Assembly (NCBI GenBank): GCA_017656305.1
Contig: JACDOG010000006.1
Coordinates: forward strand, 62,001 to 126,000
Direction of reading: 5' to 3'
Length of the DNA stretch: 64,000 nt
Source of the DNA: Thermoanaerobacteraceae bacterium
GTDB lineage: Bacteria > Bacillota > JADQBR01
In this document: positions 45,834-53,248 of the stretch, one piece after another
Layout of the letters: every line of letters starts with the position of its first letter
How positions within the stretch are numbered: the first letter of the stretch is position 1
The notes under the pieces: generated by a model
The model's input: the letters and a program-made list of their open reading frames with translations, nothing else
Told to the model about the DNA's origin: nothing
Database searches by the model: none
Program-made: the position numbers and the translations under genes

Positions 45834-45836
45834 TTG

Positions 45837-45864
45837 AGGCCCCTTTTTAGGGGTCTTTTTTTTT
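45837..45864 (+). terminator. rho-independent terminator of flavodoxin gene
   Basis: A stem GCCCC / GGGGT(C) with loop TTTTTA is followed by nine T. Confidence 0.8.
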
Positions 45865-45996
45865 ATGCAAAAAAATGTTTTGGCTTCGGTTCGTTACTGA
45901 CAAAATAAAATTCCCGAAAATAAATTATTGTAAGAAGCAATATTCTTGTGTTTCCCGCCAGTATCGGAAAATAAAGCCTGTAAAAGGAGGATAGTT

Positions 45997-46695
45997 ATGT
46001 CTAAGAAGTTTTTCAAGAGTTTCCAGGCAAGGCAGAACGGGGTAGAGCCTGGGCCGTGCCTGCCGGAGGGGTGCCCGCCGCCGACGGAGATAGTCTGCAT
46101 CAAGACCAAGAAGGTGTACCAGGAGTGCAAGCAGCTGGAAACCGATGAAGATGGCAAGGCGTTTGAGGTGGAGCTCAAAAACATCAAGGTTCCTGATGGA
46201 GCGGTGACCGTGGAATGCGTGCGCATCGACCCGTCCTTTAAAAGCTGCGACATGTGCAACCCTGGCAAAGAGTGCTGCTGCGAGATATTGCCGCCGGACC
46301 AGGTGAAATTTAATTTCCCGAAAAAAATTGAGTTTAGCATTACCGTTGAGTTCTTTGATAGCAGCGGCAACAGCCTGGGCTTCGGGACAGGGAAGGCTAA
46401 ACTTGATAAGCTGCCCAAAAGCAAGATAGTACGCCTGTCCCGCGCGGGAGAGCCGCGCATGCAGTGTGAGGTGGATATGTTCTTTGACTGTCTCTTGTGC
46501 TTCCTGGTACCGGATGAAACTCCGAAAGTACACTGCTGTATCAACGTGCTGCTGGTTTTCAAGCTGTTTGCTGAGGTACAGTTGATGGTGCCGGCATACG
46601 GCTTCTGCCCGCAGCCGCCCGAGTGCCAGGACCAGGTGGCAGGCGAGTGCCCGCCGGCGGTGCAGACCTGGCCGCCTTACCCGCTGCAGGAGTAA
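45997..46695 (+). CDS. cysteine-rich protein, tandem paralogue 1 (232 aa), family not recognised
   Basis: ATG 45997 follows AAAGGAGGA. The product has 18 cysteines in 232 residues, including C-C-C at about 98-100 (GKECCCEILPP) and paired C in HCCINVLL. There is no signal peptide. Three regions can be seen: a proline/cysteine N-terminus (PCLPEGCPPPTEIVC), a middle that looks beta-rich (KIEFSITVEFFDSSGNSLGF), and a C-terminus with FDCLLCFLVP and YGFCPQPPEC. The next gene is a near copy. Cysteine content and absence of a signal peptide would suit a spore-coat or metal-binding protein, but that is a guess. Confidence 0.8.
   Translation: MSKKFFKSFQARQNGVEPGPCLPEGCPPPTEIVCIKTKKVYQECKQLETDEDGKAFEVELKNIKVPDGAVTVECVRIDPSFKSCDMCNPGKECCCEILPPDQVKFNFPKKIEFSITVEFFDSSGNSLGFGTGKAKLDKLPKSKIVRLSRAGEPRMQCEVDMFFDCLLCFLVPDETPKVHCCINVLLVFKLFAEVQLMVPAYGFCPQPPECQDQVAGECPPAVQTWPPYPLQE
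46024..46491 (+). repeat. duplicated block, copy A (468 bp)
   Basis: Matches 46980-47447 with only two differences by eye (one changes Leu to Pro, one is silent). Flanking DNA on both sides differs, so the boundaries are sharp. Confidence 0.9.
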
Positions 46696-46958
46696 CCGGT
46701 TGTACCAATGTAGCGGTTTTAAGTTAGTAATCTGGCCAACAGAGCTACGGGCCAAGACGTGGGGATGAGTAAATTTTTTTAAAATTTTCTATTGTAGTGC
46801 GAAAGGTCTGTAACTGCAGGAGTTGCGGGCTTTTGGCTTCGCTTTAATCCTGTCAGGTATTGTTGCAAGTTAATAAGTTATACTGACAGCGCTACACGTA
46901 ACCAGTATTACAAGCCGAAAAAATTCGGCAGCAAGTAAAAAAAGGAGGAGGATAATTA

Positions 46959-47777
46959 ATGTTGGATGACAGAAATTTTCAGGCAAGGCAGAACGGGGTA
47001 GAGCCTGGGCCGTGCCCGCCGGAGGGGTGTCCGCCGCCGACGGAGATAGTCTGCATCAAGACCAAGAAGGTGTACCAGGAGTGCAAGCAGCTGGAAACCG
47101 ATGAAGATGGCAAGGCGTTTGAGGTGGAGCTCAAAAACATCAAGGTTCCTGATGGAGCGGTGACCGTGGAATGCGTGCGCATCGACCCGTCCTTTAAAAG
47201 CTGCGACATGTGCAACCCTGGCAAAGAGTGCTGCTGCGAGATATTGCCGCCGGACCAGGTGAAATTTAATTTCCCGAAAAAAATTGAGTTTAGCATTACC
47301 GTTGAGTTCTTTGATAGCAGCGGCAACAGCCTGGGCTTCGGGACAGGGAAGGCTAAACTTGATAAGCTGCCCAAAAGCAAGATAGTACGCCTGTCCCGCG
47401 CGGGAGAGCCGCGCATGCAGTGTGAGGTGGATATGTTCTTTGACTGTTTGCTGTGCTTCCTGAAACCGGGTGATGGTTCGAATGATGATGATAATGATAA
47501 TGATGATGATAATGATTCGAAAGGTTATGATTCGAAAGATGATGATTTGAAAGATGATGTTTCGAAAGGTAATGATTCGAATGATGATGATTCGAAAGCG
47601 AAAGTACACTGCTGTATCAACGTGCTGCTGGTTTTCAAGCTGTTTGCTGAGGTACAGTTGATGGTGCCGGCATACGGCTTCTGCCCGCAGCCGCCCGAGT
47701 GCGAGGACCAGGTGTTAGGTGAGTGTCCGCCGGCGGTGCAGACCTGGCCGCCTTACCCGCCGCAGCTGTTGAAGTAG
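46959..47777 (+). CDS. cysteine-rich protein, tandem paralogue 2 with acidic repeat insert (272 aa)
   Basis: ATG 46959 follows AAAGGAGGAGG. It is nearly identical to paralogue 1 from its residue 8 onward, with the same 18 cysteines. The first residues differ (MLDDRNF in place of MSKKFFKSF). An insert of about 45 residues follows FDCLLCFLKPGDG: an Asp/Asn-rich run and then six pentapeptides of the type x-Asp-Ser-Lys-x, before the shared C-terminus resumes at KVHCCINVLL. The family is not recognised. Upstream, 46696-46958 holds small inverted repeats but no gene. Confidence 0.8.
   Translation: MLDDRNFQARQNGVEPGPCPPEGCPPPTEIVCIKTKKVYQECKQLETDEDGKAFEVELKNIKVPDGAVTVECVRIDPSFKSCDMCNPGKECCCEILPPDQVKFNFPKKIEFSITVEFFDSSGNSLGFGTGKAKLDKLPKSKIVRLSRAGEPRMQCEVDMFFDCLLCFLKPGDGSNDDDNDNDDDNDSKGYDSKDDDLKDDVSKGNDSNDDDSKAKVHCCINVLLVFKLFAEVQLMVPAYGFCPQPPECEDQVLGECPPAVQTWPPYPPQLLK
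46980..47447 (+). repeat. duplicated block, copy B (468 bp)
   Basis: Counterpart of 46024-46491 at an offset of 956 bp. A second shared block covers the 3' ends of the two genes (from the codons for KVHCCINVLL on). Confidence 0.9.
47511..47600 (+). repeat. six tandem 15-bp units encoding x-D-S-K-x
   Basis: Exactly six 15-bp units with core GATTCGAAA, encoding NDSKG, YDSKD, DDLKD, DVSKG, NDSND and DDSKA. They are preceded by 36 bases of GAT/AAT codons. In-frame units allow length change without frameshift. Confidence 0.9.
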
Positions 47778-47838: not shown

Positions 47839-48597
47839 TTATCTTTGGACAAAGATTACCGTTACCATAATTCCGCCGCCTGGCCGCTTCTTGATTCCTA
47901 CTCCTGCATGGGTGTAAGAACGCAGTAGCAGGTGGGCCTGATGAATGGAGCTTCCCATGTACAGTTCCAGCGCCCGGTCAACTGTGGAGGTTTTTGCCAA
48001 AATGTCTCCGGCCATTCTGTACTTGACGCCGGCAGCATCCAGCATGTTGTTTACCCTGCCGTAGGTTGGTGACTTGTGCGCAAAATAGTTGTTGTCAATC
48101 ATATCCTGACTTTTCAGTCTGGCAATTTCTGTAATGGCCATATCCAGCTTGACGGCAGGAATACCTCTCCTGGTACGTTCCCTGTTGATCAGTTCCAGCA
48201 TACGCTGTTCTTGGGCAGTCAATCCAGCGCTGTTGTTGTCCGGTTTTTCTGGAGCCGGTTCGGGTGTTGGCTCGGGTGAGGCTGGTTGGCTGCCGTAATA
48301 TTTTTCATACCATGCTTTGCTTAACCAGCCGGTGCTTGTCCCGCTGTTCGGTTCGGATGTTTGCTCGTTTTGACCGGGAGTGTTATCCGGGGTCGGTTCC
48401 GGCTGCGGTGCCGGTTCGGGCTCCGGAGCCGGCTCAGGCTGTGGGGCAGGTTCCGGCGTTGGCTCGGGCTGCTGGGACTGGTAATACCGGGCATACCATT
48501 CTGGAGAGAGCCAGCCGATGGCAAATGCAGTACTGCTAAAACAGAACATTGTCAGAGTAACAACTAGAACAGTTACAAGTGATAATCTTGCTTTCAT
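47839..48597 (-). CDS. secreted CAP-domain protein with duplicated GWLSxxWYxxYY motif
   Basis: 252 residues. A signal peptide (1-26, ending SSTAFA) is followed by the first motif GWLSPEWYARYYQSQ (28-42), a Pro/Glu repeat linker (44-75), the second motif GWLSKAWYEKYYGSQ (90-104), another Pro/Glu linker, and a CAP (SCP/PR1-like, YkwD-type) domain from about 125 to the end. CAP residues seen include INRERTRRGIPAV, NNYFAHKSPTYGRV and the C-terminal HAGVGIKK. The protein should be outside the cell; relatives occur in sporulation and surface functions. ATG follows GAAGGGGG on the minus strand. Confidence 0.9.
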   Translation of the reverse strand: MKARLSLVTVLVVTLTMFCFSSTAFAIGWLSPEWYARYYQSQQPEPTPEPAPQPEPAPEPEPAPQPEPTPDNTPGQNEQTSEPNSGTSTGWLSKAWYEKYYGSQPASPEPTPEPAPEKPDNNSAGLTAQEQRMLELINRERTRRGIPAVKLDMAITEIARLKSQDMIDNNYFAHKSPTYGRVNNMLDAAGVKYRMAGDILAKTSTVDRALELYMGSSIHQAHLLLRSYTHAGVGIKKRPGGGIMVTVIFVQR

Positions 48598-48778: not shown

Positions 48779-50374
48779 TCATTCTGCCTTGAGAAAGGAA
48801 CTGACTATCTGTTTTACCAGGCCCGCATTTCTTTTGCCGGTTTCTGCGTCAGTATTGCGGCGCTCTTTTTCTTCCTCAATGTAATCGTGCAGCAAGGTTT
48901 TGTAACTATCCAACAGGTTTCTGAGCTTATCCAATTCTCCTGCCAGCTGCTGGATTTTCTGCTCCATTTCCTGCAGACGGCTGTTATTTTCGATGACCTG
49001 TTTGAGACTTTCTGCTTCAAGGGTGTCCAGTTTGTTATCCAGCTTGTCGCTGATGTTGGTGATAGCCCTGCTGTTAACGACTACCTTTTCTTCCAGGTGA
49101 CTCATAAACTGCTTGATACTGTCCAGTTCGGCTGCTGTATCGTTGATTTGCCTAGCCTGTTTCTTGACGGTGTCGCCTAGCTGCTGTGTCGTCAGCCGCA
49201 CGTCCTCCATGGCAAAGGTAAGTTTATACAGGCGGGTGTCAGACTGGACCTGCTGGAGATTTTTCGGGACCAGGGCTTTGGGATTATGCATTCTCAGCAA
49301 GGCCTTGCTGTCTTCCGTGGAGGTTTCTGGGGCCTCCGGTTCCTTTAGCGACCTGGTGGCGTAGGTATATGCTGCCAGCAGTACCAGCTGGGGACTGGTG
49401 GCGGAAAAGGTCCGCACCAGGTCTAACGGCTCCTGCTTCAACTTACTGCCCATTTGATAGTTGAGCTTCATAAAGTCCTTGAACTGACCTTCTTTTTCCG
49501 GATTGCTCCAGGTATCGCCCCAGTCTGAGGAGGTACTGTAGTAGATGCCGTCAATTTGCTGCCACATGGTAATCAGCCGGTTGTTGCTGTTGAGCAGGAT
49601 GGGTGAGAAGGCATTGGCCTGGGACGGCGAAACAACTTGTTCCTTGCCCCAGCCGCCGACCAACCAGCCTCCCGGGCGGAAACGCCGGTAGTATACCCGG
49701 AGATGCATGCCGTCCGATTTCAACCAGACCAGGTGCAGGTTGTTGTACCGGTCGGATAAAATGCAGGGGTCCAGTTTATTGCTTGACTGCTGTTTTGTCA
49801 GCAGGTACCTGTACTGCCAGCTGTTTGTGCTGGGGTCAAAAGCGTAGTGGCACAGCTGGTAGTTGTCGCCGTCAATTTCCTGGGCAACCAGGTGAATCCG
49901 GCCGTTGGTACCGGAGTTTATCACCGCGTTGCCGCAGGGTTCGCCGAGGGTGTTGATTATTGCTGGTTTCGACCACTGTCCTGCGTACTTATACTGGTGG
50001 ACAAGAACCTTTGCCTTTTCTGTTTTGGATAGATATGTTACGTGGACGCAGCCGGCGGATACGGCCAGCATGAGGTTGCTGGTGCTGTTGGGGTTGCGCG
50101 GAAACAGCTGGACTTCTTTTGACCAGCGGCTGCCGTCCCAGAAGCAGTAGTTAAATATCCCTGTACTATCCTCCGCGATTAAATGAATGGTATCGTTGTC
50201 TCCCAGTGCCAGTGAATACTCTTCCCGAAAATCGGTTACCAGCACTTCCTCATCCGACCAGACGGCGGTGTCTGGGTCGTACTTTTTGATACATAAATGT
50301 CCCCGGGCATTCTTGTATAAATTCCAGATAAAATCACCATGGGCAAAAGTCAGTAAGGGGTTGTGCGGAGCCAC
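48779..50374 (-). CDS. propeller-like N-terminal domain plus C-terminal coiled coil, hypothetical, 531 aa
   Basis: GTG 50374 starts directly after the stop of the upstream gene, with AAGGAGG inside that gene's last codons, so translation is coupled. Residues 1-300 contain repeated strand patterns with Trp and Asp (LYKNARGHLCIKKYDPDTAVW, truncated here; WDGSRWSKEVQLF; LHLVWLKSDG; SSDWGDTWSNP), resembling sialidase/BNR-type beta-propellers. Residues about 395-505 are a long coiled coil (LDKLRNLLDSYKTLLHDYIE and heptads before it). No signal peptide or membrane segment is seen. Function is unknown; it could be a spore-associated or structural protein. Confidence 0.75.
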   Translation of the reverse strand: MAPHNPLLTFAHGDFIWNLYKNARGHLCIKKYDPDTAVWSDEEVLVTDFREEYSLALGDNDTIHLIAEDSTGIFNYCFWDGSRWSKEVQLFPRNPNSTSNLMLAVSAGCVHVTYLSKTEKAKVLVHQYKYAGQWSKPAIINTLGEPCGNAVINSGTNGRIHLVAQEIDGDNYQLCHYAFDPSTNSWQYRYLLTKQQSSNKLDPCILSDRYNNLHLVWLKSDGMHLRVYYRRFRPGGWLVGGWGKEQVVSPSQANAFSPILLNSNNRLITMWQQIDGIYYSTSSDWGDTWSNPEKEGQFKDFMKLNYQMGSKLKQEPLDLVRTFSATSPQLVLLAAYTYATRSLKEPEAPETSTEDSKALLRMHNPKALVPKNLQQVQSDTRLYKLTFAMEDVRLTTQQLGDTVKKQARQINDTAAELDSIKQFMSHLEEKVVVNSRAITNISDKLDNKLDTLEAESLKQVIENNSRLQEMEQKIQQLAGELDKLRNLLDSYKTLLHDYIEEEKERRNTDAETGKRNAGLVKQIVSSFLKAE

Positions 50375-50695
50375 TTATTTAACCTCCTTTTGCTTGCTGT
50401 CCGCTATTTCCTTCGCGACGGACCGGATACATTCCTCGGGCGGCCATGAGTAGTTGCATTCCTTGTCGCATTTGAGACACTGGCGCAGGATTGAAGGTTT
50501 GGTCCAGTAACCGGACTTGGTGGCATTAAATGCTGAGCGAGCCTTGCCTTTGGCAGTCTTTGGTCCCGTACTTTTGAGGGCATTTTGGGCACTGCGCTGT
50601 TTACCTTCTGCTGTTCGGGGGCCGGTGGATTTTTTGGCGTTGCGCCGGTTGGCTTCCAGCTTTGCCTTGGATATGGGTTTCTTTTTTTTAGTCAT
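50375..50695 (-). CDS. small basic protein with repeated NAxKSTGPxTAxGKxRSA motif, 106 aa
   Basis: ATG at 50695 lies downstream of GGGGAGG. The N-terminal half is Lys-rich and contains two tandem copies of a motif of about 19 residues, NAKKSTGPRTAEGKQRSAQ and NALKSTGPKTAKGKARSAF, then a third start NATKSG. The C-terminal half has four cysteines in C-x2-C-x3-C and a later C (CLKCDKECNYSWPPEEC), possibly a zinc site. The motif is seen in many uncharacterised bacterial proteins; nucleic-acid binding is plausible from charge. It is coupled to the gene downstream. Confidence 0.75.
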   Translation of the reverse strand: MTKKKKPISKAKLEANRRNAKKSTGPRTAEGKQRSAQNALKSTGPKTAKGKARSAFNATKSGYWTKPSILRQCLKCDKECNYSWPPEECIRSVAKEIADSKQKEVK

Positions 50696-50946
50696 TATTT
50701 TTTCTATCCTCCCCAATCTATTATTGAAGCTAGGACATTTGGCTACGATTCTTGCAAAAATACTGAGGTATAGTCAGTATAGTTTGCTACCGGGGATAAT
50801 GTGACAGAAAAAGCCCATCATCTCCCTGGTAAATTATGGCAGAAAAAACTCCCCGGGCGGAGAGAGAAGTTTTTGGCAACAGATAAATTGACGCAATGGT
50901 AAATAACAAAAAAAGTCCTGTTTACAGGCTTAAGGGGGTTGAGGCA

Positions 50947-51871: not shown

Positions 51872-53248
51872 TTGATTGAAAGAAAAATAGGTTTTATGGC
51901 GCTTATCTTGTTTCTGGCAGCCTTGGCCGTACCGGTAATTGCCCTAGCGCAGGAGCCAGGTGCTGCGGGCAGTACTGTCAGCAGCAAGGTGCAAATTGCC
52001 CAGGCTGCCGAGCAGGGTGAAACGGACTGCCTGCAGTGTCACGAAACCCGCATTTCCGCTATTTACCGGGAATGGAAGGAAAGCAGGCATGCCGACGCGG
52101 GAGTGGGGTGCGACAGCTGTCACCGGGTGCAGCAGGGTGACCCGGGGGCGGTAAAGCATTTTGATGGCAGCTATATTACTCCCGTGGTGTCACCCAAGGT
52201 GTGTGCCCGGTGCCATGAAAAGGAAGTGACAGAGTTTAACCAGAGCCTGCACGTGCAGGCGGCAACCTTTGTCAAGGATTTTACCGCCGGGAAGCCGGAA
52301 GAGGACGACGTGTTGGGCTATAAGGTGGAAGGGCTCACGGCGCCCATCAGGGGTTGCGAACAGTGCCACGGTACCAAGGTGGAGATGAGTAAGGACGGGA
52401 AGCTTAAGCCCCTGACTTGGCCCAACATCGGTGTGGGTAGGATCAATCCCGACGGCAGCAAAGGCAGTTGCAGCGTCTGCCACACGCGGCATGCTTTTTC
52501 TGTGGAAGAGGCTCGCAGGCCGGAAAACTGCGGCACCTGCCACCTGGGTCCCGACCATCCTCAGGAGGAAATATATTTTGAATCCAAACACGGGAAGATA
52601 TACCAGGCGGAAGGCGACACCTGGAACTGGGATGCACCGGCAGAGGAGTGGGACCTGGATGATTTCCGGGCACCCACCTGCGCCACCTGTCACATGTCCG
52701 GTCTGGGTGATAACGAGGTGACCCACAATGTCAGCGACCGGCTGTCTTGGGAGCTGGAACGGCCGTTAACCGAGAAAACGAAAAACTGGCAGGAGAAACG
52801 GCAGAAAATGCAGGCGGTCTGTAAGGAGTGCCACTCCACTTCCTGGGTGGAAAACTTTTACGTGCAGGCCGATGAAGCTGTGAAACTGTATAACGAGCGG
52901 TACTATAACCCCTCTGTTGAACTGTACGAATCGCTCAAGGCGCAAAACCTGATCAGCAAGGACAAGTTTGACGAGCCCATTGATTTTCTCTTTTTTGAAC
53001 TGTGGCATCACGAGGGGCGCCGGGCCCGCATGGGTGCTTTCATGAACGGACCGGACTACGTGCAGTGGCACGGGTTTTATGACCTGGCGAAAACGAAAAT
53101 GGAACTGAAAAACATGGCTGAAGAAATCAAGGGGATGCACACCGGCACTACTACCGTGTCCAAGGTGACGGCCAACATCTCCTGGGTGGCCCTGGCCGTT
53201 GCGGTGCTGGCCCTGCTGGCCGGTGGCGTGGCCCTGCTTCGTAAATGA
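51872..53248 (+). CDS. octaheme c-type cytochrome, hydroxylamine oxidoreductase-like, membrane-anchored
   Basis: 458 residues from TTG 51872 (AAAGGAGG 7 bases upstream). A signal peptide (about 1-26) is followed by exactly eight CxxCH heme-binding motifs at residues 53, 80, 111, 162, 200, 220, 270 and 317. A region after the last heme, WHHEGRRARMGAFMNGPDY to QWHG (378-400), resembles the conserved C-terminal part of HAO-family octaheme proteins. A C-terminal membrane helix (about 436-455) with a short basic tail anchors it on the outer face of the membrane. It could reduce nitrite or another nitrogen or sulfur compound, or pass electrons outward. It is transcribed alone; no NrfH/NapC-type quinol partner is adjacent. 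Confidence 0.88.
   Translation: MIERKIGFMALILFLAALAVPVIALAQEPGAAGSTVSSKVQIAQAAEQGETDCLQCHETRISAIYREWKESRHADAGVGCDSCHRVQQGDPGAVKHFDGSYITPVVSPKVCARCHEKEVTEFNQSLHVQAATFVKDFTAGKPEEDDVLGYKVEGLTAPIRGCEQCHGTKVEMSKDGKLKPLTWPNIGVGRINPDGSKGSCSVCHTRHAFSVEEARRPENCGTCHLGPDHPQEEIYFESKHGKIYQAEGDTWNWDAPAEEWDLDDFRAPTCATCHMSGLGDNEVTHNVSDRLSWELERPLTEKTKNWQEKRQKMQAVCKECHSTSWVENFYVQADEAVKLYNERYYNPSVELYESLKAQNLISKDKFDEPIDFLFFELWHHEGRRARMGAFMNGPDYVQWHGFYDLAKTKMELKNMAEEIKGMHTGTTTVSKVTANISWVALAVAVLALLAGGVALLRK

Follow-up and report, generated by a model that had tools for sequence, protein, structure and literature searches.

We conclude that the two tandem genes analysed here probably encode structural tiles, made in the cytosol and crosslinked by disulfides, for the outer layer of the spore (its outer coat or exosporium), a reading to which we assign a probability of roughly 0.7. 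The genes lie in a 64,000-nucleotide stretch of DNA from a Thermoanaerobacteraceae bacterium, referred to as the window. A structural role in outer spore layers is very likely for the family as a whole, and by analogy the chance that its members form lattice tiles like those of CsxA is about even. The window proteins belong to a known kind of protein, of which they form a new branch that is as yet uncatalogued.

A tandem pair with a near-identical core

Each of the two genes (Table 1) has its own AGGAGG-type ribosome site. An earlier note, made from the sequence alone, had described adjacent genes with 468 bp in common, two differences between them, and distinct N-termini, flanks and one internal segment. 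This description holds in full: exactly two bases differ in the alignment of the blocks, T46061C (Leu22Pro) and the silent C46074T, and the scores of HMM and BLAST searches exclude chance by a wide margin as a cause of this likeness. The copies are unrelated upstream and in their opening 8–9 codons, with 82% identity over the first 20 codons, the 3′ parts (46523–46689 and 47599–47765) are 96% identical with 6–7 differences, and the internal segment is the insert of copy 2. The same note's count of 18 cysteines per protein, including a CCC run (residues 93–95) and a CC run (180–181), was reproduced for both proteins, and inspection by eye shows no hydrophobic N-terminus in either copy, in agreement with the claimed lack of a signal peptide. 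A family search of the source genome found no third paralogue.

Table 1. Features of the gene pair and its surroundings, in window positions; coordinates of the copy 1 and copy 2 ORFs include the stop codon
Feature	Coordinates	Strand	Remarks
Terminator-like hairpin	45836..45857	+	Upstream of copy 1; closes FMN reductase gene
Promoter-like element of copy 1, CTGAC-N17-AATAAATTA	45897..45927	+	Sigma-K-like, one base off -10 consensus
Copy 1, putative Cys-rich spore outer-layer protein	45997..46695	+	232 aa, 18 Cys; ORF with AGGAGG; family HMM member
Near-identical block, copy 1	46024..46491	+	2 differences in 468 bp
Promoter-like element of copy 2, CTGTC-N17-AATAAGTTA	46850..46880	+	Sole exact CTGTC match in genome
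Copy 2, same family	46959..47777	+	272 aa, 18 Cys, acidic insert; ORF with AGGAGG; family HMM member
Near-identical block, copy 2	46980..47447	+	Counterpart of 46024..46491
Asp-rich insert of copy 2	47463..47600	+	46 aa, 19 Asp; 15-nt repeats; site of length variation in other members
YkwD/CAP-domain protein	47839..48597	-	Conserved neighbour, 13/24 loci
BNR-like beta-propeller and coiled-coil protein	48779..50374	-	Conserved neighbour, 13/24 loci; 531 aa

Conversion or recent duplication

The earlier note had proposed either a very recent copy or gene conversion, which our data support, and the two are not separable with certainty. When copies were compared across related genomes, a check that the note had proposed, we found that the window copies are sisters in the tree (support 100/99), far from any relative, and that tandem copies are also sisters in three other genomes (G002, 92/90; G300 and G387, 100/99 each); thus such pairs arose or were homogenised several times. 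The other tandem pairs have 71–83% nucleotide identity, and near-identity is confined to the window pair. Sister placement and the repeated origin of pairs in further lineages suit a very recent tandem duplication without conversion, its ends having diverged or been acquired at breakpoints, which would be compatible with a role as spore tiles and which we rate somewhat below an even chance. It accounts less well for the uneven spread of differences (2/468 in the central block versus 6/167 in the tail, Fisher p = 0.005), for the unrelated 5′ flanks with their separate promoters, and for the tandem pair in equal gene order in G002, which suggests an older pair, although the tree does not show orthology to the window pair. 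The mosaic of a 99.6% identical block inside ends of 82–96% identity favours partial conversion, and a recent duplication with intragenic breakpoints would fit almost as well.

Both copies are very probably real rather than a product of assembly: an assembler error, whether a spurious second copy of a repeat or a false levelling of two copies, is scarcely credible even in a draft genome of 62 contigs with a 468-bp repeat longer than short reads, given that the flanks of each copy are unique, that each has a separate, conserved promoter element, that the 46-residue insert is present in one copy only, that two differences are kept, and that tandem pairs occur in other genomes, including the related single-contig G002 with its equal gene order.

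Family distribution and conserved features

The earlier designation of an unrecognised family stands for the window proteins, for which sequence searches returned no Pfam, NCBIfam or PDB match, and falls for the superfamily, where intermediates reach NF052457 (see below). The HMM and structure search that the note had proposed for the 232-aa protein yielded a family profile and, in part, an empty result. The 26 closest members likewise match no entry of Pfam, NCBIfam or PDB, and searches of these databases with single proteins and with profiles A1, A3 and A4 gave nothing meaningful for the clostridial branch; a match to OB_cyt-4 (E 0.017, below the cut-off) was attributed to chance. AlphaFold models of four input sequences, whole and trimmed, were weak (pLDDT 59–62, pTM 0.49–0.53), and Foldseek returned no meaningful match from these low-confidence models, with GFP-like barrels discarded at TM scores of about 0.2 or less.

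A single-protein search found homologues in all three genomes of the class. Across the phylum, a profile recovered them in 122 of 399 sampled genomes, and a wider profile in 138 of 395. In hhalign comparisons with A1, subfamilies A3 and A4 gave probabilities of 99.8 and 99.7, respectively. A mobile-element origin was rejected, as searches of viral contigs, phages and plasmids with the window protein and the A1, A3 and A4 sets found no family member, and no Rfam elements were found near the two genes.

Conservation among the 26 members is concentrated at the ends of the protein (mean 0.74 for residues 18–46 and 0.70 for 180–232) versus 0.32–0.36 in the middle, and six cysteines are invariant (44, 95, 165, 181, 210 and 218 in copy 1 numbering). 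The insert of copy 2 (rich in Asp, Ser, Asn and Lys; pI 4.05) sits in the loop that joins the CxxCF motif to the CC motif, and no other aligned member has an acidic loop. Because the length of this loop varies (8–24 residues in the other members measured) and one protein, L098, carries about 130 extra residues at this point of the profile, the alignment suggests that the loop is exposed and permissive.

Relation to the BMQ_0737 family

Profile comparisons indicate that the family is homologous at the superfamily level, via intermediates, to the BMQ_0737 family of morphogenetic spore coat proteins (NCBIfam NF052457, curated cut-off 71 bits). Intermediates are needed because the window proteins, like every A1 member, have no match to NF052457 at E<=0.1 and because the 26-member HMM by itself fails on L149 (E 1.5), a full NF052457 member from G268 at 240 bits and the only one above the cut-off among the proteins with scores shown. 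The gap is bridged from both sides: nine of the 37 members of the wider A5 set match NF052457 (best 4.6e-11), L149 matches the A5 HMM at about 1e-11 to 1e-10, and L150 from G023, which belongs to neither profile, matches both the 26-member HMM (2e-10) and NF052457 (5e-14). As the window proteins fail the cut-off of that model, we do not class them as members of the BMQ_0737 family.

Association with sporulation

The spore marker spoIVA is present in 120 of the 122 family-positive genomes versus 216 of 277 negatives (p = 9e-9, a guide only, because related species are not independent). The two family-positive genomes that lack it are 80% and 90% complete, and all 16 genomes gained by the wider profile are spoIVA-positive.

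A strict sigma-K motif (AC-N15-18-CATANNNTA) was found upstream of 13 of 33 family genes, compared with a mean of 0.44 and a maximum of 3 in shuffled sequences. Among 240 other ORFs from these loci, 12 had it (p = 2e-7). Promoters for sigma-E, sigma-G and sigma-A showed no enrichment upstream of family genes. These motif statistics point to late mother-cell expression of the family. Neither window copy is preceded by the strict motif. By eye, the upstream regions of both copies and of three genes from two family-level relatives share CTGNC-N17-AATANNNTR. Within the window, CTGNC-N17-MATANNNTA occurs twice, once ahead of each copy, and the exact CTGTC-N17-AATANNNTA has a single occurrence in the genome. 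We infer that the CTGNC-N17 element is a lineage variant of the sigma-K promoter.

Gene neighbourhood

Neighbours were counted at 24 loci, picked non-randomly from good matches after one false match had been taken out. The two recurrent neighbours follow the pair on the opposite strand (Table 1). The YkwD/CAP-domain protein has Pro-Glu-rich repeats and two WLSxxWYxxYYxSQ units, and CAP genes recur beside family genes, also at L150 in G023. The propeller/coiled-coil protein has no family above the cut-off and is probably an unnamed spore protein. Gene order in G002 equals that of the window (the two copies, then ykwD and the propeller gene), and further along this genome carries a SipL/SPOCS-domain gene cluster and a third family gene. 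The small repeated genes beside this third copy were considered as pilins and rejected; they encode SipL/SPOCS-domain proteins.

Clusters of such genes adjoin family genes in both G001 and G002 (L033:12229–16000, L034:23–7162 and L032:8357–14785) and include a 1274-aa Ig-repeat protein with a C-terminal SPOCS domain. The SPOCS domain (SipL/SPOCS, PF12673) is absent from the family proteins; in G002, SPOCS proteins are their neighbours. Abutting the propeller gene in the window (50375–50716, minus strand) is a gene for a 113-aa protein with repeated STGPRTAEGK/STGPKTAKGK motifs, a homologue of which lies in G002 (L034), next to the third family gene. At 51872–53248 (plus strand) we also noted a multihaem c-type cytochrome related to hydrazine dehydrogenase and multi-haem cytochromes (PF13447; NF052343 below cut-off).

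Fusions to other modules

The family domain also occurs within larger proteins. In the 1050-aa L106 (G346) it spans residues 547–726 (E 1.3e-19, hhalign probability 98), following DUF4183 and DUF11 and preceding two further DUF4183 domains. The F-ENA anchor F-Anchor-3 is reported to carry a 'CsxA-like domain' (PMC11952670), and by elimination the family domain of L106 is probably that domain. Other fusions join it to a PF13229 right-handed beta-helix (L087–L090) and to a YNCE propeller (L078, L086). In the beta-helix proteins L087, L088, L089 and L090 the family domain is C-terminal, an arrangement unmentioned in the available portions of the literature cited here.

A Priestia megaterium plasmid protein annotated as an S-Ena type appendage (L155:1235–2134) contains a CISATKVFDW motif and an Ena domain followed by a BMQ_0737-like stretch, which resembles L149 (34.6% identity, E 6e-10); possibly, an Ena domain has here been inserted into a spore-coat domain. 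Three short DUF4183 pilus anchors (L108:2708–4102, L109:1997–3349 and L110:1769–3127) have weak scores to the family domain, and the order of segments in their N-terminal region (C-terminal half, then a CIxVxKVYDxC motif) is suggestive of a circular permutation. What the fusions and relatives would have in common is a module that anchors surface structures in the outer spore layer.

Proposed role and alternatives

The coat or exosporium role that the earlier note had raised gains weight from the restriction to spore formers, the sigma-K promoters, the homology to BMQ_0737 through intermediates and the presence of the domain in an exosporium pilus anchor. In the scheme that we consider best, sigma-K-type promoters would drive transcription of the genes at a late stage in the mother cell (for the window copies, presumably through the elements whose -10 differs from the consensus by one base), and the proteins, which by eye have no signal peptide, would be synthesised in the mother-cell cytosol. 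Assembly on the forespore surface would proceed via the Cys-rich N-terminal (18–46) and C-terminal (180–232) segments, with a variable, putatively all-beta core between them, and disulfides would then lock the assembled subunits, as described for CsxA. The domain may serve as a socket that builds F-ENA pilus anchors, beta-helix and beta-propeller modules into the layer, the fusions themselves being observed. Copy 2 would display its acidic loop, so that one layer may mix plain and decorated subunits, and the 468-bp block would be held alike by conversion or be recently duplicated.

An appendage function, in which the proteins polymerise into Ena- or F-ENA-like fibres or tether them instead of tiling a sheet, is unlikely. 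The family domain is indeed present in F-ENA-type anchors and a BMQ_0737-like stretch in the Priestia Ena-domain protein, but family members match neither Enas (PF13157) nor DUF4183 (PF13799), the window genome encodes no DUF4183 protein, and the stand-alone members have no fibre domain. Metal binding or storage, which the earlier note had also suggested, found no supporting sign and is very improbable: 18 cysteines and a 46-residue loop with 19 Asp could bind cations, but the cysteines are fixed and dispersed (six invariant ones flank beta strands) with no metallothionein-like CxC arrays, NF052457 and the CsxA-like anchor domain, both relatives, have structural roles, and the acidic loop is found in no other aligned member.

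The family has a member in about one third of the genomes sampled from the phylum, and no Pfam or NCBIfam model detects the clostridial branch. If the proteins are indeed tiles of the outer spore layer, a main outer-layer protein could be named for many anaerobic spore formers with unstudied surfaces, exosporium proteins of Bacilli and Clostridia previously thought unrelated in sequence would be tied together, and the recombinant proteins could be used to probe lattice formation through disulfide links under the reducing conditions of the cytosol. More tentatively, and with some doubt on our part, CsxA-like proteins, BMQ_0737-like proteins and the window family might all belong to one superfamily of domains that lock by disulfides at the spore surface and that have gone uncatalogued in most Clostridia. 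It would be a general socket for fixing pili, beta-helices and propellers into the outer spore lattice, and in this organism conversion would keep the two tiles alike apart from the acidic loop that one of them displays.

Comparison with known systems

One of the known systems nearest to the window proteins is BMQ_0737 of Priestia megaterium. Its GFP fusion is among the outermost spore proteins (PMC4656864); a place in the outer spore layer and a need for the protein in the integrity of that layer are known for BMQ_0737 only, from that paper and the title of a 2014 paper cited there. The two families, both from spore formers, are homologous over most of the domain through L150, L149 and the A3 subfamily and share an N-terminal CIxxxKVYD motif; they differ in that the window proteins are below detection with NF052457 and that the Bacilli-type L149 does not have the clostridial Cys pattern (CPPPTEIVCIK...ECK, VQLxVPxYGFCPxPPEC, WPPYPPQ).

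CsxA, the exosporium lattice protein of Clostridium sporogenes, is likewise a Cys-rich protein of the clostridial spore surface. On spores and in E. coli it assembles into hexagonal arrays that are stable to heat and linked by disulfides (PMC7333573), and it has 299 aa and 25 Cys (PMC4942563), compared with 232 and 272 aa and 18 Cys in the window proteins. We do not class these as CsxA, because the likeness lies in domain architecture (L106 matches the F-Anchor-3 make-up) and not in a direct sequence comparison. PMC7333573 also describes a highly conserved ORF divergent from csxA, to which the propeller gene, often divergent from the family gene, can be likened by arrangement only.

ExsY and CotY of Bacillus have an analogous role as Cys-rich proteins that self-assemble into exosporium or coat arrays, an analogy with no sequence match, and the appendage proteins P29a and P29b of Clostridium taeniosporum resemble the window pair in their arrangement as paired paralogues. 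S-Ena appendage proteins are also Cys-containing, disulfide-stabilised and located on the spore surface, but are built from a different domain (PF13157), to which family members have no Pfam match. The F-ENA anchors of the DUF4183-DUF11, F-Anchor-3 type hold the family domain itself, as in L106, within large multidomain proteins with DUF4183, whereas the window proteins consist of this domain standing alone.
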